DNA from: Limosilactobacillus fermentum
GTDB taxonomy: Bacteria; Bacillota; Bacilli; Lactobacillales; Lactobacillaceae
Reading direction: 5' to 3'
NCBI RefSeq assembly: GCF_013394085.1
Contig: NZ_CP040910.1
Location: forward strand, 524,387 to 588,386
DNA length: 64,000 nucleotides
In this document: positions 12,923 through 63,564 of the stretch, piece after piece
Layout: each line of letters starts with the position of its first letter
How positions within the stretch are numbered: the first letter of the stretch is position 1
Made by a program: the position numbers and the translations under genes
Notes under the pieces: generated by a model
Databases searched by the model: none
Told to the model about the DNA's origin: nothing
The model's input: the letters and a program-made list of their open reading frames with translations, nothing else

Positions 12923-13699
12923 ATGCGCAAACCATTTGTGGTCGCGAATTGGAAAATGCACAAGAGCGTTGATGAAGCGTTAGACTTTATCCGGAGCTTG
13001 CAAGGCCGGCTTCCCGATGCCGACTTAGTCGAATGCGGGGTCGCCGCCAATTTCTTAGCCCTGTACCCAATGTTACAAGAGGTCAAGGGCCAACCGCTGG
13101 AAATTATTTCGCAAAACGCCTATGCCGAATACGAGGGGGCCTACACCGGTAAGGTAAGTCCTAAGGCCCTGGCCGACGCCGGAATTAATTATGCCTTGTT
13201 AGGCCACATTGAACGGCGCAAGCTTTTTAATGAAACGGACGATTTGGTTAACCGAAAGGTAATCGCCACCTTGCAGGCCGGGATGACCCCGATTATTTGT
13301 ACCGATGAGACGATGATTCAAAAAGAGTTTAGTGGTAGCGTCCACTACGTCTTTGAACAGTTAATCAACGTCTTGCGGGGCGTTTCCTTCGACCAGGTAA
13401 AAAACATTATCATTTCTTACGAACCGAGCTGGGCGGTCGGGGTTGGTCAACACGCCAACCCGAACCTGGCCGAAGAAGGGTGCCGCTTGATTCGGCAAAC
13501 GATCGCCGACTCGTATTCTTACGAGGTGGCCGATAAGATCCGAATCCTCTACGGTGGGAGCGTTAATCCCGAAAACATTAAGCAAATCATGAACAAACCG
13601 GACATTGATGGGGTCTTAATTGGCCGGGCAAGCCTCGACGCCGATAACTTCTTGTCGATGATCAATACGGTAGTCGAACTTTATAAGGGTGCTAAATAG
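12923..13699 (+). CDS. tpiA: triosephosphate isomerase with altered HSERR motif
   Basis: 258-aa TIM barrel that interconverts dihydroxyacetone phosphate and glyceraldehyde-3-phosphate. Catalytic residues are in place: Asn/Lys in VANWKMH, His95, Glu167 in ISYEPSWAVGVG, and the phosphate loop LYGGSVNPEN. The motif around His95 reads GHIERRKLF, whereas nearly all TIMs have GHSERR: Ser96 is replaced by Ile. Loop 6 (AVGVGQHANP) also departs from the common AIGTGKTA. It may therefore be a divergent second copy rather than the main glycolytic enzyme. It is preceded by GCGAGGGA and is monocistronic. Confidence 0.88.
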   Translation: MRKPFVVANWKMHKSVDEALDFIRSLQGRLPDADLVECGVAANFLALYPMLQEVKGQPLEIISQNAYAEYEGAYTGKVSPKALADAGINYALLGHIERRKLFNETDDLVNRKVIATLQAGMTPIICTDETMIQKEFSGSVHYVFEQLINVLRGVSFDQVKNIIISYEPSWAVGVGQHANPNLAEEGCRLIRQTIADSYSYEVADKIRILYGGSVNPENIKQIMNKPDIDGVLIGRASLDADNFLSMINTVVELYKGAK

Positions 13700-13700
13700 G

Positions 13701-13757
13701 ACAGTAGGGGCGTGGTTATTGGCCACGTTGCCTGTCTAGCATTATTGAATACAGTAA
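13701..13757 (-). repeat. short copy of the box/hairpin intergenic repeat (copy E)
   Basis: Read on the minus strand, a terminator-like hairpin (13793-13757) runs into a 25-bp box (13757-13733). The box has TACTG then TATTCAATAATG in place of the palindromic core TATTCGCGAATA. A short hairpin follows (CGTGG 13711-13715 with CCACG 13723-13727). The order hairpin, box, hairpin matches copies at 22912, 31608, 41858 and 46669. Confidence 0.65.
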
Positions 13758-20399: not shown

Positions 20400-21419
20400 T
20401 TGCAAACCTATCAAACAACGCAAGCGCAGTTACGGGCAATGGTCGACGACGGGGTGGTCCCCGGCATGTCTTATTGCCTCTTTGAACGCGACTGGCAGGT
20501 CGAAGCCGTTCGGGGGCTAGCGCAAATTGAACCGACTCCGGAACGGTTACGCCCTGGGATGCTTTATGACTTGGCTTCCCTAACCAAGGTGGTGGCAACG
20601 GTACCGGTGATCGCCATCCTCTTACAAAGCGGGCGCCTGTCTCTGGATGACCCGGTTAGTAGGTACTTACCGGAGTTTTCAAACGACCAGGTTAAAATCT
20701 ACCATTTGCTGACCCATTCGTCGGCAATTGGTGGCTACATTAAAAATCGTGATGACCTTGATGCTAAGCAGTTAACAACCGCCCTGTTAACGAACCAGAC
20801 TAGTGGGGTTAACCGGGACCGCTTGATTCGCTACGCCGACGTTAACTTCATCTACTTAGGCTGGATTGCCGAGCGCATCTTGGGGCAACCAATCCACGTG
20901 TTGGCGAGGGAGTTGGTCTTTGCCCCCTTACAGATGACGCAAATCACCGACCAGCCGGTAGCCACCCAAACGGTGCCGACGAGCATTGACCAGCGGCGGG
21001 GGCTCTTGCGCGGTCAAGTGCACGACCCCAAGGGAGCGGTGTTAGGGAGCCACTGCGGGTCGGCCGGCTTTTTTGCCCCCCTCACTGACTTGATTACCTT
21101 TAGCCGGGCCCTGGTGGGGACTAACCTGGCCGGCCTGTTGACCGAACAAACCATGGCGCAGCTCTTTAGCGATCAAACCAGAATGGTCAGCCCCCACCTC
21201 CGTGGCTTGGGCTGGAAGCTGGTCCCAAACCCAGCCACCCACCGTTTTTTGATTAGCCACACTGGCTACACCGGAACCCTCTTAGTCTTAGACCGTGATC
21301 ACGACCGGGGGCTAATTATGCTGACTAACCGGGTGCACCCGCGGGGGCAAAACAACCGCTACTTAGACCGCCGCGATCAAATCATTGCTACATACCTTCG
21401 TGAAATGGGAGAAAATTAA
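20400..21419 (+). CDS. serine hydrolase of the beta-lactamase (class C)/PBP4* family
   Basis: 339 aa, no signal peptide, so cytoplasmic unless exported otherwise. Penicillin-recognising motifs: the SxxK nucleophile motif in ASLTKVVA (about residue 60), YADVN in place of YxN (about 150), and HTG in ISHTGYTG (about 285). Such proteins act as esterases, peptidases or wall-modifying enzymes, and true beta-lactam hydrolysis is uncommon. The start is a TTG with AAGGGGGAAG upstream. Its stop overlaps the start of the cardiolipin synthase gene (TAATG), suggesting a shared envelope role. Confidence 0.85.
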   Translation: MQTYQTTQAQLRAMVDDGVVPGMSYCLFERDWQVEAVRGLAQIEPTPERLRPGMLYDLASLTKVVATVPVIAILLQSGRLSLDDPVSRYLPEFSNDQVKIYHLLTHSSAIGGYIKNRDDLDAKQLTTALLTNQTSGVNRDRLIRYADVNFIYLGWIAERILGQPIHVLARELVFAPLQMTQITDQPVATQTVPTSIDQRRGLLRGQVHDPKGAVLGSHCGSAGFFAPLTDLITFSRALVGTNLAGLLTEQTMAQLFSDQTRMVSPHLRGLGWKLVPNPATHRFLISHTGYTGTLLVLDRDHDRGLIMLTNRVHPRGQNNRYLDRRDQIIATYLREMGEN

Positions 21420-22906
21420 TGATAACTTGGGATACCATTCGCTATGTAATTGAAACTATCTGGTTAATTAACCTAGCCCTGGCCTTTTGGACGGTCTTTC
21501 GGGAGCGCCGGGACATCGCTTCAACCTGGGCCTGGCTGTTGGTCTTATCCTTTTTACCGGTGGTGGGCTTTGTCGCCTACCTCTTCGTGGGCCGCAAACT
21601 GTCGCACGACCAGATCTTCACCATCCAAGACGAACAACGGCGCATTCTAGAACAGTACAAGCAACAACAACAGCGCCTACTGGAGGCCCAAAAGCTCCTG
21701 CCTAAAGAAGAGCAATCGCGTAGGGATCAGATGATGGCCAACCTCTTGTTAAACACCGACAACGCCCTGCTAACCTTTGGCAACCAGGTACATTTATTTA
21801 CGGACGGGCACGCTAAGTTCGATCAGCTCATCAAAGACATTGATCAGGCCAAGCGGCACATCCACGTTGAATACTACACCTTTGCGGCCGATCAATTAGG
21901 TCATCGGGTCTTGGCGGCCCTTGAACGGGCAGCCGAGCGTGGGGTGGAAGTCCGGGTTCTTTATGACTTGTCGGGGTCGCGCGGGACCACTTACCGCTTC
22001 TTTAGTCACCTTGAAGAACTTGGTGGCCAAGCTCAGGCCTTCATTTCTAGCGCTAAGGCTCGTTTCAACACCCCCCGCTTGAATTACCACTTGCACCGTA
22101 AGTTGGTCATCATTGACGGTGACCTGGGCTACATTGGGGGCTTTAACATTGGTGATCAGTACCTGGGCGAGTCGCCAAAGTTTGGTTACTGGCGGGATAG
22201 CCACCTCCGGGTCGAGGGGACGGCCGTATTGATGATGCAAGCCCGCTTCATCATGGATTGGAACACGACTTGCCGGCGGACCAAAAAGGAGCGGATGGAC
22301 CTGGCGGGTGATTACGTTAACGTTCGAACCACCCGGCTAAAGAATCCGGATCGGTCAATGGTTCCGATGCAGATTGTTTCGTCCGGCCCCGATAACGATA
22401 ACCGGGCGATTCGTCGCGGTTACCAAGGGATCATTTCCTCGGCCCGTCACTACGTCTACATTCAAACCCCGTACCTAATTCCCGATGACGCAATTTTAGA
22501 GTCATTAGTGGTGGCGGCTAAATCCGGGATCGACGTTCGGATCATGATCCCGCCGATGCCGGATCACCCCTTTGTCTACCGGGCGACGGAGTACTTTGCC
22601 CACTACCTGGTTTCCAACGGGGTGAAGGTTTACAAGTACGATAAGGGCTTTTTGCACGCCAAGACCATGGTTTCCGGTGGTCACCTGGCGTCGGTCGGGT
22701 CGGCTAACCTGGATTACCGTTCCTTCCGGCTTAACTTTGAGGTTAACGCCTTTACTTACAACGAGCAGTTGGCTGGTGAATTGAAAGCGGCCTTTGAAAA
22801 CGATCTAAAAGACTGCACCCAACTGAACGAGGAGTACTTCGACCAGCAATCAGCTTGGCGGAAGTTCAAACAGGACTTCTGCCGCTTGCTCGCCCCAATT
22901 TTGTAA
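21419..22906 (+). CDS. cls: cardiolipin synthase (phospholipase D family)
   Basis: 495-aa membrane enzyme that joins two phosphatidylglycerols into cardiolipin. Two N-terminal membrane helices (about 8-28 and 38-58) precede two phospholipase D domains. The first HKD motif is complete (HRKLVIIDGDLGYIGGFN). The second reads HAKTMVSGGHLASVGSANLD: His413 and Lys415 are present, but the Asp normally seven residues after the His is Gly420. A coiled, Gln-rich stretch (about 75-105) follows the helices. It overlaps the upstream hydrolase gene by one base. Confidence 0.9.
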   Translation: MITWDTIRYVIETIWLINLALAFWTVFRERRDIASTWAWLLVLSFLPVVGFVAYLFVGRKLSHDQIFTIQDEQRRILEQYKQQQQRLLEAQKLLPKEEQSRRDQMMANLLLNTDNALLTFGNQVHLFTDGHAKFDQLIKDIDQAKRHIHVEYYTFAADQLGHRVLAALERAAERGVEVRVLYDLSGSRGTTYRFFSHLEELGGQAQAFISSAKARFNTPRLNYHLHRKLVIIDGDLGYIGGFNIGDQYLGESPKFGYWRDSHLRVEGTAVLMMQARFIMDWNTTCRRTKKERMDLAGDYVNVRTTRLKNPDRSMVPMQIVSSGPDNDNRAIRRGYQGIISSARHYVYIQTPYLIPDDAILESLVVAAKSGIDVRIMIPPMPDHPFVYRATEYFAHYLVSNGVKVYKYDKGFLHAKTMVSGGHLASVGSANLDYRSFRLNFEVNAFTYNEQLAGELKAAFENDLKDCTQLNEEYFDQQSAWRKFKQDFCRLLAPIL

Positions 22907-22911
22907 TAATA

Positions 22912-22947
22912 AAGGCCAGGAGAACATCATGTTTCTCCTGGCCTTTT
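22912..22947 (+). terminator. terminator of cls; first module of repeat copy A
   Basis: AAGGCCAGGAGAA and TTTCTCCTGGCCTTTT pair strongly. It is followed with no gap by the 25-bp repeat box. Confidence 0.88.
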
Positions 22948-22970
22948 GTTGTATTCGCAAATGTTAGACA
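22946..22970 (+). repeat. 25-bp intergenic box (copy A)
   Basis: TTGTTG, then TATTCGCAAATG, then TTAGACA. The middle is a degraded form of the palindrome TATTCGCGAATA. The same box follows a terminator-like hairpin at 46703-46727 (+), 31608-31632 (-) and 13733-13757 (-), and in shortened form at 41918-41930 (-). Confidence 0.8.
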
Positions 22971-22976
22971 GATAAC

Positions 22977-23085
22977 GTGCTCCCAACCACGGGCCTAGTA
23001 GCTAAGTACGGGTGAAGAACGGTGCGTGCCGCACCAACCTTCCCCCTAGCTTAGCTATACGACCCGAATCAGAGGTTGGTCGCAC
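22977..23085 (+). repeat. long palindromic intergenic repeat (copy A1)
   Basis: 109 bp that fold end to end: GTGCTCCCAACC with GGTTGGTCGCAC, ACGGGCCTAGTAGCTAAG with CTTAGCTATACGACCCG, and GGTGAAGAACGGTGCG with CGCACCAACCTTCCCC around a 3-nt loop. There is no open frame or ribosome site. 41 of 45 bases of its left arm match the reverse complement of the copy at 63331-63442. Confidence 0.85.
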
Positions 23086-23095
23086 TTCCAATAAC

Positions 23096-23206
23096 GTGCT
23101 CCCCAACCGCAGGCCTAGTGGCTAAGTCTGACCGGAGAACGATGCGTACCGCATCAACCCCCGTTCTATCCTTAGCCCACGGCCTGCTTGATAGGTTGGA
23201 TCGCAC
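23096..23206 (+). repeat. long palindromic intergenic repeat (copy A2)
   Basis: 111 bp directly repeating copy A1 after a 10-bp gap; both begin with ATAACGTGCT. Arms: GTGCTCCCCAACC with GGTTGGATCGCAC; GCAGGCCTAGTGGCTAAG with CTTAGCCCACGGCCTGC; GAGAACGATGCG with CGCATCAACCCCCGTTC. Where it differs from A1 (GCAGGCC for ACGGGCC; GATGCG for GGTGCG) the opposite arm has changed to match. It ends 7 bp from the stop codon of the converging gene. Confidence 0.85.
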
Positions 23207-23212
23207 TCACTT

Positions 23213-23518
23213 TTAACTATTTTTGATTTTGGTTTTGAGGTGGTCCATTTCCATCACCACGATCGTTTCTAACAGGGTGATGATGCAAACTGCCAGAAAG
23301 GACCAGTTACCTGGGGCAACGAACATGAAGATGATTAACAACCACGATCCCCAACTCCAGCGGTTGTCGATCCGGACAATCCGGCGAATTCGGCCCTCTA
23401 ATTCGGCGGGGGCCTCATCGTTGGCCAGTAGTCCACGTAAGTACAGTTGGAGGCGGACTTCAAAGAATGACTCGACGATAAAGGCGATCACCATGAGGGT
23501 GGAGAGTGAATTTAACAT
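23213..23518 (-). CDS. small membrane protein downstream of murT-gatD
   Basis: 101 aa with an N-terminal hydrophobic helix (about 1-20), a charged middle (LEGRIRRIVRIDNRW) and two further hydrophobic segments (about 55-92). No named family is recognised. It starts 11 bp after the gatD stop on the same strand with GGGGGTGG upstream, so it is probably the last gene of the murT-gatD operon. A membrane-anchoring or unrelated role cannot be decided. Confidence 0.7.
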   Translation of the reverse strand: MLNSLSTLMVIAFIVESFFEVRLQLYLRGLLANDEAPAELEGRIRRIVRIDNRWSWGSWLLIIFMFVAPGNWSFLAVCIITLLETIVVMEMDHLKTKIKNS

Positions 23519-30947: not shown

Positions 30948-31583
30948 ATGGGTAAATTTGAGGTGCTGGATCACCCGCTAATTCAACATAAGTTAACGAT
31001 GATTCGCGACAAGCGGGTCGGAACGAAGGTCTTCCGGGAAACGGTCAAGGAAATTTCAACCTTGATGGCCTACGAAGTTTCCCGTAACATGCCCCTAAAG
31101 GACGTTGAAGTGGAAACGCCAATTGCCAAAACCACTCAAAAGGAATTGGCTGGGAAAAAGGTAGCCATCATTCCGATCTTACGGGCCGGCCTGGGGATGG
31201 TCGATGGGATGACCGAATTGATCCCAGCAGCCAAAATTGGCTTTATTGGGATGTACCGGGATGAAGAAACCTTGAAGCCGCACGAATACTTCGTGAAGTT
31301 GCCAAACGACATTACGGAACGGCAACTCTTCATCGTTGACCCGATGCTTGCGACCGGTGGGTCAGCCGTAATGGCCATCGAAGCCCTAAAGAAGCGGGGC
31401 TGCCAAGAAAAGAACATGAAGTTTGCCTGCTTAGTAGCGGCGCCAGAAGGGGTTAAGGCGGTTCAAGAGGCCTTCCCGGATGTTGATATCTACACGGCTG
31501 GGCTGGACGAACGCTTAAACGAAGATGGTTACATTGTGCCTGGCCTCGGGGACGCGGGGGACCGCCTCTTCGGGACCAAGTAG
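30948..31583 (+). CDS. upp: uracil phosphoribosyltransferase
   Basis: 211-aa salvage enzyme making UMP from uracil and PRPP. The PRPP-binding motif is in [15 protein letters not shown] (about 129-143), and the uracil-binding end [13 protein letters not shown] is complete. [13 protein letters not shown] is the typical flexible loop. AAAGGAG precedes the ATG. The uracil permease 2.2 kb downstream serves the same pathway but has its own PyrR-type control. Confidence 0.97.
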
Positions 31584-31607
31584 GTTTGCGACTGTTTCCG
31601 TAATTTG

Positions 31608-31632
31608 TGTCTAATATTCGTGAATACAGCAA
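31608..31632 (-). repeat. 25-bp intergenic box (copy C)
   Basis: On the minus strand TTGCTG, TATTCACGAATA, TTAGACA: the palindromic core is intact except for one base. It directly abuts the hairpin at 31632-31670, which precedes it in this orientation. The long palindrome seen in other copies is missing or decayed here. Confidence 0.75.
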
Positions 31633-46727: not shown

Positions 46728-46733
46728 TCAAAT

Positions 46734-46841
46734 GTGGCAAATAACCGCAGGCCCAGAGTCTAAGCAGGACGAAGAACGGTGTGGTTCGCACCAACCGTTC
46801 GCCCGCTCTTACATGCTACCTGCAACGGAGGTTATTTCCAC
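46734..46841 (+). repeat. long palindromic intergenic repeat (copy B)
   Basis: 108 bp folding end to end: GTGG-AAATAACC with GGTTATTTCCAC, GCAGG with CCTGC, and GACGAAGAACGGTGTGG with the CGCACCAACCGTTCGCCC arm. The apical part (GAAGAACGGTG / CACCAACC) matches copies A1 and D, while the basal stem has a different sequence that still pairs. It ends 26 bp before a start codon. Confidence 0.82.
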
Positions 46842-46867
46842 CCACTTTTTAAAGGGGGAGCAAGTCG

Positions 46868-56072: not shown

Positions 56073-56285
56073 CGATTTCTTCACGGTAGCCTATAAAATT
56101 CTAAGTTACCTCAAGTACTGTTATGAACATGGTGAACAACCTGATCCAGGTGTGATTAATGAGCGAACGCTGCTGATTTCCAAAGCCCAGTACGTTGAGA
56201 CATTGCGAATGTTGAGCGATCACAACTACATTGAAGGAGTTACCTTCACCCACACGAAGGAGGGAGTCTTGTATTCGTTCCAGGA

Positions 56286-57645
56286 GAGAGTGTCAAGAAT
56301 GTTGTGTAAAAAAGGAAACTTCGCCCGCATGAATTGGCGATTCTAAAACATCGAATCAAGCGTGTCGTGACAGTCCTTGAATCCCCGATGTGCTCGATTC
56401 TCAAATTTATCGTTGTACTCCATCACTTGCGTCATGATAAAGCGATCGAGGGCTCCTTCGTTTGGGAACTGCTCTTTACGTCGGACCATCTTCTTCAGGC
56501 TCTTATTGAACGACTCAATTAGGTTCGTCGAGTAGATGGTCTGACGGATCGCAGTTGGAAAACTGAAGAACGTGAATAGCTCCTCCATTTGGACTAGATT
56601 CTTGATTCGACGCTTATAACTGGACTCCCACTTAGCACTGAAAGCCGCCAATCGTTCTTGGGCGGCTTGTAGGTTCTCTGCTTGCCGAATAGCCTTAAAG
56701 TCGGTGATAATCTCCCTGCGATCGTTTTTGCGAACGTACCCTAAAAGGTTGCGCTCTGCGTGGACCCAGCACCGTTGAAACTTCGCCTGCGGGTAGTTAG
56801 CCTCAATCGCAGATTGAAGTCCAACTAAACCGTCGGCGATGAACAACTGAATATCTTTAATCCCCCGTGCGCGTAATCCCTGGAGTAGTTCAGACCAAGC
56901 GGCTCCGTTCTCGGTCGGTGCGATACTGTAGTCAAGAACTTCCTTACCGCCGTCACTTCGAATTCCGATCGCTACGTTAACGGCTTCTCGTTCAACGGTA
57001 CCACGGCGTAACGGAATGTAAGTAGCATCGAGGAACACACAGACGTACTGTGAGTACTTGAATTTGCGCTCGTGGAACTCTTCAACCAGGTGTTCCGTCC
57101 GCTTAGTGATGTTTGAAACCGTGGTTGGTGAGTAGTAGTGGCCGTACATTCTCTCAACCATATCAGCGATTTCACGAGTTGTGACGCCCTTGGAGTACAT
57201 CTTGATGACCATTTCCTCCAGTCCATCAGTCCGACGCACGTAAGGAGGGAAGAGGGCGTTTTGAAACTTGTTTAACCGGTCCCGTGGGATCGTCAGATTA
57301 ATTTCACCGTACTCAGTGTCGATCGTGCGGGTGTACGTCCCGTTCCGGTAGTTCACGTCGTCTTTTGATCGGTCGATCCGAGTATGTGGTTCGTAGCCTA
57401 GCACCGCAGTCAGTTCATTTTGAAGGAACTGATTAGCGGCCACTTCAATTTGACGACGTAAGACTTCATTCAGGGTAATATCTTTGTCTGAAGATAGCGC
57501 TGCGATAATATCTTTGTTAAACTGGTTCATGGGGAAAGCCTCCGTATTCTGATTGGTTTTTAGCGATTTCAATCATACGGGGAAGGCTTTCCCTTTTTCA
57601 ATACCCTCAAGGTATCAATTTACACAAAATATTTTACACTCCCTT
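56286..57645 (-). mobile_element. IS256-family insertion sequence
   Basis: About 1.36 kb bounded by imperfect inverted repeats of about 24 bp (GAGAGTGTCAAG... at the left; the right end, inverted, has GGGAGTGTAAAA...). It is flanked by the 8-bp direct repeat TTCCAGGA (56278-56285, 57646-57653), the duplication size usual for IS256. It carries one intact transposase gene. The right inverted repeat starts about 2 bp inside the duplication edge, so the exact terminus is slightly uncertain. Confidence 0.9.
56343..57530 (-). CDS. IS256-family (mutator-type) transposase
   Basis: 395-aa DDE transposase. The N-terminal region includes NYRNGTYTRTI and EINLTIPRDR. Acidic catalytic residues lie in CVFLDATYI, LFIADGLVGL and the C-terminal TNLIESFNKSLKK, with the C/H box (FQRCWVHAERNLL) typical of the mutator family. 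The ATG at 57530 (MNQFNKDI) follows GGGGAAAG-like sequence; the longer frame is not needed. The frame is complete, so the element may be active. Confidence 0.93.
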   Translation of the reverse strand: MNQFNKDIIAALSSDKDITLNEVLRRQIEVAANQFLQNELTAVLGYEPHTRIDRSKDDVNYRNGTYTRTIDTEYGEINLTIPRDRLNKFQNALFPPYVRRTDGLEEMVIKMYSKGVTTREIADMVERMYGHYYSPTTVSNITKRTEHLVEEFHERKFKYSQYVCVFLDATYIPLRRGTVEREAVNVAIGIRSDGGKEVLDYSIAPTENGAAWSELLQGLRARGIKDIQLFIADGLVGLQSAIEANYPQAKFQRCWVHAERNLLGYVRKNDRREIITDFKAIRQAENLQAAQERLAAFSAKWESSYKRRIKNLVQMEELFTFFSFPTAIRQTIYSTNLIESFNKSLKKMVRRKEQFPNEGALDRFIMTQVMEYNDKFENRAHRGFKDCHDTLDSMF

Positions 57646-57750
57646 TTCCAGGACGCAAGAATCACTATCGAAGGCTTGGAATACCTGGCCGAGAACTCAA
57701 TGATGCAGAAAGCTTTTAGAATCTTTAAGTCGTTTAAAGAATGGCTATAA

Positions 57751-63277: not shown

Positions 63278-63295
63278 TTGCTTGCTACCTTTGGG

Positions 63296-63479
63296 GACAG
63301 GACAAATCTACAAATTTACGCAAACTGGAAGTGCGATCCAACCTTCTCGACGGGCCGTATGGCTAAGCTAGGGCAAATGGTTGTCGCCCTCGGCGCCGTT
63401 CTTCGCCCGTACTTAGATACTAGGCCCGTGGTTGGGTCGCACTCCTTTTTATTGCACAAATCCAAATATTTGTCCTGTC
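63296..63479 (-). repeat. long palindromic intergenic repeat with extra outer arms (copy D)
   Basis: The 112-bp core (63331-63442) reads on the minus strand almost as copy A1: GTGCG then CCCAACCACGGGCCTAGTA are shared, and 41 of 45 bases match over the left arm. Outside it, GACAGGACAAAT (63296 on) recurs inverted at 63479, with TTTACGCAA / TTTGTGCAA further in. This gives a 184-bp nested palindrome. The 25-bp box is missing. It lies between the thiI terminator and the next promoter. Confidence 0.82.
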
Positions 63480-63564
63480 TCACTTTCGGCTTTGCGCTAC
63501 TCAGTTTTCCCAATTGACCATTGAAACTAACCTAATTTCGACTTTCTTTTACACCAAGGTGGAG

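Follow-up and report, generated by a model that had tools for sequence, protein, structure and literature searches.

A dispersed palindromic hairpin element adjoining stop codons in Limosilactobacillus fermentum and other Lactobacillales

The EFAR repeats, a palindromic family of Enterococci (De Gregorio et al. 2009), reportedly adjoin stop codons. Some of the REP sequences of E. coli are found no more than 15 nt from a stop codon, where ribosome stalling has been reported (PMC12306157), and REPs are described as 20-40 bp sequences, tagged by GTAG or CGTC, of which some are linked to RAYT and others have no known enzyme (PMC3733652). In Lactobacillales, the L17 downstream element is a structured motif in potential 3' untranslated regions (UTRs) and has an Rfam accession (PMC2864571). 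The subject of this report is a hairpin element that forms a tandem pair at positions 22972-23208 of a 64,000-nucleotide stretch of Limosilactobacillus fermentum DNA (contig NZ_CP040910.1, positions 524,387 to 588,386; hereafter the window, to which feature coordinates refer). The best explanation places it in a family of dispersed, non-coding palindromes that extends across the order and has spread over evolutionary time. The probable reading is that the element is mobile and REP-like but distinct, and that it inserts at stop codons, in sense orientation, to become a 3'-UTR hairpin there; for it we infer both a mobiliser and a function as RNA.

The L. fermentum genome (1,887,974 bases) carries at least 157 copies, a few of them partial, in 128 places. 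This number comes from a rescan of fetched stretches and 14 lower-scoring rows added by hand, with overlaps removed, and is a lower bound, sequence distant from the copies having been scanned incompletely. A DNA search of the genome with the element gave 58 matches, and a covariance model built from 32 copies gave at least 150. The places comprise 104 single, 19 double and 5 triple ones; neighbouring copies have the same orientation in all 29 pairs and a spacing of 118-124 nt in 28 of the 29. A sequence-only reading of the window had proposed selection on structure, either as a structured RNA or as a palindromic mobile repeat, and had treated further genomic copies and significant covariation among homologues as decisive. 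The proposal is supported on both counts, by the copies of this one genome and by covariation that is strong within it and across species. As a separate observation, a GCAC-ended subfamily is denser at G000:1600000-1887974 and 0-300000, the end and start of the contig, than in mid-contig, and this zone is where the GC skew switches sign.

The tandem pair and its surroundings in the window are as follows.

22911 to 22946, no strand assigned: intrinsic-terminator-like hairpin with A-run and T-run, 3' of both converging genes (terminator scan)
22950 to 22971, minus strand: conserved linker CTGTCTAACATTTGCGAATACA between hairpin and terminator (linker pattern search)
22972 to 23087, sense on the minus strand: element copy 1, the distal copy of the tandem pair (covariance-model limits and folding)
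23091 to 23208, sense on the minus strand: element copy 2, starting 4 nt past the stop of the open reading frame (ORF) 23213-23518 (covariance model)
23213 to 23518, minus strand: host ORF of 101 aa, without a Pfam match, whose stop codon abuts the tandem repeats

The direct repeats previously placed at 22977-23085 and 23096-23206 are real, with the slightly wider covariance-model limits listed here and a unit spacing, taken from those limits, of 119. Each copy folds end to end, as had been claimed, with z-scores of -6.1 to -6.8 over both strands and none of 200 dinucleotide shuffles as good, and the minus strand is the better-folding strand of the pair. The host ORF is located behind MurT- and GATase-like genes, and a phospholipase-D-like gene (21419-22906) is convergent with the repeats. 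The hairpin at 22911-22946, a 14-bp inverted repeat with a T-run, comes after this phospholipase-D-like gene; the terminator scan count for the region is 1, no higher than the shuffle mean of 1.2. The repeats had been described as lying behind a terminator, which is the wrong way round as to strand: the terminator-like hairpin follows the converging gene.

On its sense strand the element folds end to end into a GUGC/GCAC foot, a GA/GA internal loop and a long interrupted stem, over a length of about 110-127 bp, with ends GAGTGCGA...GAGCACGTT or genus variants of them. Among the first 32 copies, changes on both sides of a pair were found in 14 of 29 pairs. An alignment of 146 distinct copies, fitted to the covariance model's own structure, has both-side changes in 21 of 29 pairs; pairing cells amount to 93.4% against 84.1% in column shuffles, both-side-changed cells to 493 against 152, and none of 500 shuffles was as high on any measure. 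A further alignment of 40 copies (13 from L. fermentum and 27 from other species) was made without structure fitting; in it, pairing reaches 93.8% of cells, and both-side changes occur in 34 of 43 pairs. Slid controls on this alignment gave 36-43% pairing, a comparison that somewhat favours the structure because the structure was predicted from the same alignment. The both-side changes are mostly from one Watson-Crick pair to another, and the compensating changes first noticed between the window copies are borne out in both alignments.

The reverse strand, opposite to the one first considered, folds more stably in 142 of 156 L. fermentum copies. This sense strand contains two near-invariant G-U or U-G pairs (149/155 and 153/155) with a U-U between them (150/155). 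Where only one side of a pair has changed, the sense strand shows G-U more often than A-C, both in GC-majority pairs (179 vs 85) and in AU-majority pairs (102 vs 19); counted pair by pair, G-U exceeds A-C in 20 pairs and falls below it in 13. Counting fewer pairs, on the antisense strand, had first given nearly even numbers (156 G-T vs 138 A-C), a result that the better alignment and pairs reversed. The G-U bias supports selection on the sense strand, as RNA or as single-stranded DNA, and falls short of proving it because the copies are related and mutation may be strand-biased.

The position of the element relative to genes is similarly one-sided. In L. fermentum, an ORF-call stop lies within 15 nt of the sense start in 69 of 128 places, as compared with 1 of 128 at the other end, and when ORF runs of at least 120 codons are considered, 66 stops lie at -2 to +11 of the element start, mostly at 1-8 nt. 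In the GenBank annotation of strain DR9, for which the table used is incomplete, an annotated stop is found at -13 to +12 in 14 of 32 places and on the other side in 0 of 32. The structure seen in the sequence-only reading has stood, on the opposite strand from the one it had folded; the tie to stop codons and the spread beyond the genus had been missed.

A terminator-like hairpin is found within 110 nt downstream in 80 of 126 places (29/128 in shuffles; 40/126 outward on the host side), its start most often 25-27 nt past the element. The conserved linker has 44 occurrences at up to 3 mismatches, with none in the reversed control, and often stands ahead of the terminator. Of 16 linker sites without a listed copy, nine have a full or degenerate hairpin and seven have none that is detectable. 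In L. fermentum the T-run after the hairpin is broken (GTTAT). A loose tail motif, GGCTANGTAAYANTG, similar to the L. fermentum linker, follows some copies in loci L240-L256 and L271-L274 of other genera.

A covariance-model scan of the Limosilactobacillus genomes, as had been suggested at the outset, gave matches in at least 24 of 37 genomes with model R1 and at least 22 of 34 with model R2, own genome included. An upstream stop lies within 30 nt in 29 of the 46 copies examined from other species. One genome, G024, contains a group of copies that are near-identical over the hairpin and differ in their flanks, which indicates precise element ends. Two sites common to G024 and G034 were recognised by eye. 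Of 31 host proteins from other species, which include three pairs representing the same gene in two species, none has an L. fermentum relative that carries a known copy of the element in sense. An exact pattern fitted to L. fermentum had no match in the species genomes, from which records near the window's own were possibly excluded.

Beyond the genus, scans of the family and the order with the genus models, covering 12-24 scored candidates per genome, identified carriers in 6 of 151 (R1) and 3 of 295 (R2) genomes. The distant matches share mainly the ends, and across Lactobacillales equal termini enclose other stems. The pattern GAGTGCGA N90-120 GAGCACGTT is present in 19 of 395 Lactobacillales genomes, from 15 of 80 genera, with a single match in total for the reversed control; one of these 19 carriers, G316, has a poor hairpin and the appearance of coding DNA. 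A slightly looser pattern, with matches retained only on passing a hairpin criterion, gave 78 distinct elements, 77 of which have z < -3 and 72 of which fold better on the sense strand. The criterion (foot pairs plus energy below -30) is weak, as 101 of 300 interior-shuffled controls pass it, and z-scores from single-base shuffles (15 each) were therefore used instead. Loci L211, L217 and L268-L270 (G370) are arrays that mix several hairpin types with common ends.

A stricter pattern with TA in front detected 116 stretches among 84,980 species genomes. Eighty have a named source, comprising 78 from Lactobacillales (Lactobacillaceae and Facklamia) and two others that are probably chance; among the remaining 36, about three (L388, L394 and L396) look like chance. 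The sense strand folds better in 117 of 122 TA-pattern copies, a set that overlaps the 78 elements above. In 61 of 122 elements (42/86 plus 19/36), TA and the element's first G form a TAG that shares its frame with an open run of 100 codons or more; among the other TAGs of the first 80 loci this holds for 195 of 11157. The count for the elements includes misfits and, the pattern requiring TA, is not the family-wide rate. In the wider family selected without TA, 32 of 65 places are stop-adjacent at the sense start and 2 of 65 at the opposite end, a count that includes some wrong-frame calls (distance -1, e.g. L240), so that counts on runs of 100-120 codons are safer. Host stops of 120-codon runs in this wider family are TAG in 20 of 29 cases vs 29 of 108 others (p 5e-5), whereas L. 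fermentum host stops show no excess of TAG (19/66 vs 135/476).

Turnover of the element can be followed at individual genes. One gene is present in all 24 genomes of the genus of G143, and its 3' end was read in 22. The protein C-terminus is alike in all 22 (MDLF, MNLF or LDLF), and at the orthologous stop codon an element overlaps the stop or begins 2 nt past it in four genomes and is missing in 18. The folding energy of the 130 nt past that stop is -68 to -77 kcal/mol for the four filled sites and -9 to -30 for the 18 empty ones. Two of the filled sites have identical left flanks; their stems differ over large parts and still pair. At a closer distance, aligned long stretches of the window strain and DR9 are about 98-100% identical. 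Of 24 loci compared between these two strains, 23 have the element in both, four of them with a difference of about one tandem unit; at the remaining locus DR9 retains the first element bases only, with about 200 nt deleted. Strains thus mostly retain their single copies, with tandem number varying and hairpins being lost through deletion; between species, the occupied positions change. Plasmids, in Latilactobacillus and further genera, carry the element together with asnB, in one record 1 nt from the stop; phage records gave no element match. The DR9 record CP033372.1 (L198-L206) is labelled "plasmid unnamed1"; its 760 kb include ribosomal protein operons as well as RNA polymerase and fusA, and it is evidently part of the chromosome.

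If the element is mobile in the way favoured here, a trans-acting enzyme that recognises the folded strand would copy it into new sites, with a preference for the 3' ends of genes. Insertion at a stop codon would be tolerated because the reading frame still ends; the element often supplies its own first base to complete the TAG of the host gene. Once inserted, it would be co-transcribed, and the terminating ribosome would meet a 3'-UTR hairpin at its leading edge; the hairpin may slow 3'-to-5' decay or tune termination, as reported for E. coli REP hairpins. The reported stalling of ribosomes at REPs within 15 nt of the stop (PMC12306157) makes an effect on termination or decay plausible. A bolder and distinctly more tentative proposal is that the element represents a type of non-autonomous mobile hairpin not described before, either inherited from an ancestor of Lactobacillales or spread within the order. 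Such a hairpin would target stop codons in a single orientation, restore the stop by means of its first base and so provide the host gene with a structured 3' UTR, and the enzyme moving it would be something other than a Y1 transposase or a resident reverse transcriptase.

Several observations weigh against mobility of this kind. A mobilising enzyme was not found, and neither Y1 transposase nor reverse transcriptase tracks the element. Between the two L. fermentum strains there is no fresh insertion among the 24 loci, the one difference being a deletion. No target-site duplication was recognised by eye in the G024 copies, and the empty orthologous sites are highly diverged downstream. The hairpin is undetectable at seven of the 16 linker sites mentioned above, so it is not kept everywhere, and in some genomes many places have no sense-side stop within 12 nt (7/8 in G087, 4/8 in G097, 6/10 in G117 and 4/8 in G143).

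Two candidate mobilisers were considered and rejected. Y1_Tnp has 15 matches in the window genome but none in nine carriers with at least 10 copies, in a search with PF01797 at E 0.001 in which most of these nine genomes are drafts. Reverse transcriptase is present in 4 of 12 carriers and in neither the window genome nor G024. Separately, the genus genome G036 has 23 reverse-transcriptase matches, most of them in frames of about 470 aa, which probably represent a group II intron burst.

A less likely reading that still deserves serious weight is that of a host-serving 3'-UTR RNA, kept by selection for exonuclease protection, as a protein-binding site or for termination control, with its spread a by-product of 3'-UTR recombination. 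It would account for the placement between stop codon and terminator (52 of the 69 stop-adjacent places have a terminator-like hairpin downstream), the biased orientation relative to genes, the near-invariant G-U, U-U and U-G pairs with the G-U over A-C excess on the sense strand, and the retention of 23 of 24 loci between strains; it is at odds with positions that are not common to species (0/31), with decayed and deleted copies, with copies distant from stop codons that retain structure and strand bias, and with the precise ends of the G024 copies despite different flanks. It is improbable that the element is a mobile intrinsic terminator, in which the hairpin and a U-run end transcription directly past the stop codon. 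The sense-strand T-run that this would use has 4-6 T in 23 of 84 Lactobacillales copies and just 3, the pattern's own minimum, in 61, and it is broken in L. fermentum, where most stop-adjacent copies have a separate hairpin downstream; in its favour, only 14 of 40 TAG-fused Lactobacillales copies are followed by a second terminator-like hairpin (32/200 in shuffles). Terminator stems do not typically have a 4-bp foot with an internal loop.

Membership of a REP/BIME family moved by the REP-associated Y1 transposase is disfavoured and very improbable, since the length is about 115 rather than 20-40 bp, no GTAG or CGTC end tag was seen by eye, and the nine genomes with at least 10 copies, most of them drafts, have no Y1_Tnp match, despite the high copy number of palindromes close to stop codons and the 15 matches in the window genome. 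Slighter still is the chance that these are integron-like recombination sites behind single genes. The attC sites of integrons are structured single-strand hairpins behind stop codons that are conserved in shape and not in sequence, and the element resembles attC in length, post-stop placement and this form of conservation; its ends GAGTGCGA and GAGCACGTT appear unlike the attC core sites, and its arrays contain hairpins without genes. Finally, arm-to-arm correction of a non-functional palindrome by template switching could generate compensating changes without selection, and mostly Watson-Crick to Watson-Crick changes are what it would leave. This is the least probable of all and close to negligible, as such correction would erase the strand-specific near-invariant G-U, U-U and U-G pairs and the G-U excess, and the orientation of the element relative to genes is biased.

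The window contains further traces of the family and of other repeats.

13700 to 13753, plus strand: probable remnant, a short hairpin and linker past the stop of ORF 12923-13699, without a full hairpin
31607 to 31628, plus strand: linker downstream of ORF 30948-31583, with a terminator-like hairpin behind it and no copy of the element
46730 to 46844, minus strand: diverged, weaker element copy with no ORF-call stop abutting its sense start (covariance model, 62 bits)
63329 to 63447, plus strand: element copy within a second palindromic repeat, with no stop codon at its sense start (covariance model, 111 bits)

Both related copies that had been placed at 46734-46841 and, inverted, at 63331-63442 are real, and they are unequal, with 62 vs 111 bits. 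Folding of the former has a z-score of -2.7 on the plus strand (3/200 shuffles as good) and -3.9 on the minus strand, and folding of the latter has z-scores of -5.6 and -7.3. Of the three places in the window, only that of the tandem pair is stop-adjacent; those of the copies at 46730 and 63329 are not. The second palindromic repeat, ACAGGACAAAT...ATTTGTCCTGT, encloses the copy at 63329-63447 in the region 63280-63500, and one or both of its arms flank six element copies in the L. fermentum genome. An IS256-family element at 56271-57646 is 98-99% identical to copies on plasmids of many lactobacilli.

In about half of its L. fermentum places, the element sets what directly follows the host stop codon. 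Given this share, dozens of gene 3' UTRs may be rewritten, independently, in many food and gut bacteria. The family makes it possible to test how a repeat finds stop codons, as well as whether post-stop hairpins control translation termination and mRNA decay outside Proteobacteria, and the defined motif GAGTGCGA...GAGCACGTT can be used for annotating these genomes.

No named family was proposed for these repeats originally, and comparison with Rfam 15 at the gathering cut-off agrees: the window gives tRNA and 6S only, with the element unmatched, and of 26 other loci, the six genus loci give no match and the 20 wider loci give tRNAs only. Weak Rfam matches on 22900-23260 are far below the cut-offs. 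A literature search by title and abstract opening, in which subscription journals mostly lie outside, found no description of the element. The L17 downstream element differs in being tied to the ribosomal protein L17 gene, and Rfam gives no match between it and the present element. RUP, BOX and other MITE-like repeats of Firmicutes are likewise short, non-coding and dispersed, and some are foldable (PMC3049150 and PMC2267715). In the present element, the whole sequence is an inverted repeat. RUP- and BOX-type repeats, which are set apart here by description only, are not known to fuse with stop codons or to favour the sense orientation.

The most important comparison is with the EFAR repeats, which are likened to the element by description only. 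Like the REP and BIME sequences of E. coli and other Proteobacteria, the element consists of dispersed palindromes in 3' regions, and, as in REP, part of its copies (69/128 places) stand no more than 15 nt from a stop codon. It is unlike REP in its length of about 115 bp, its other ends, its biased orientation, its head-to-tail tandems and its lack of a Y1 link. In terms of the REP super-family definition, the element is 110-127 bp long rather than 20-40 bp and ends in GAGTGCGA...GAGCACGTT or genus variants rather than a GTAG or CGTC tag, and as regards REPs that accompany a RAYT, the nine carriers with at least 10 copies, most of them drafts, have no PF01797 match. The element works like REP, yet it is not REP by length, ends or enzyme.
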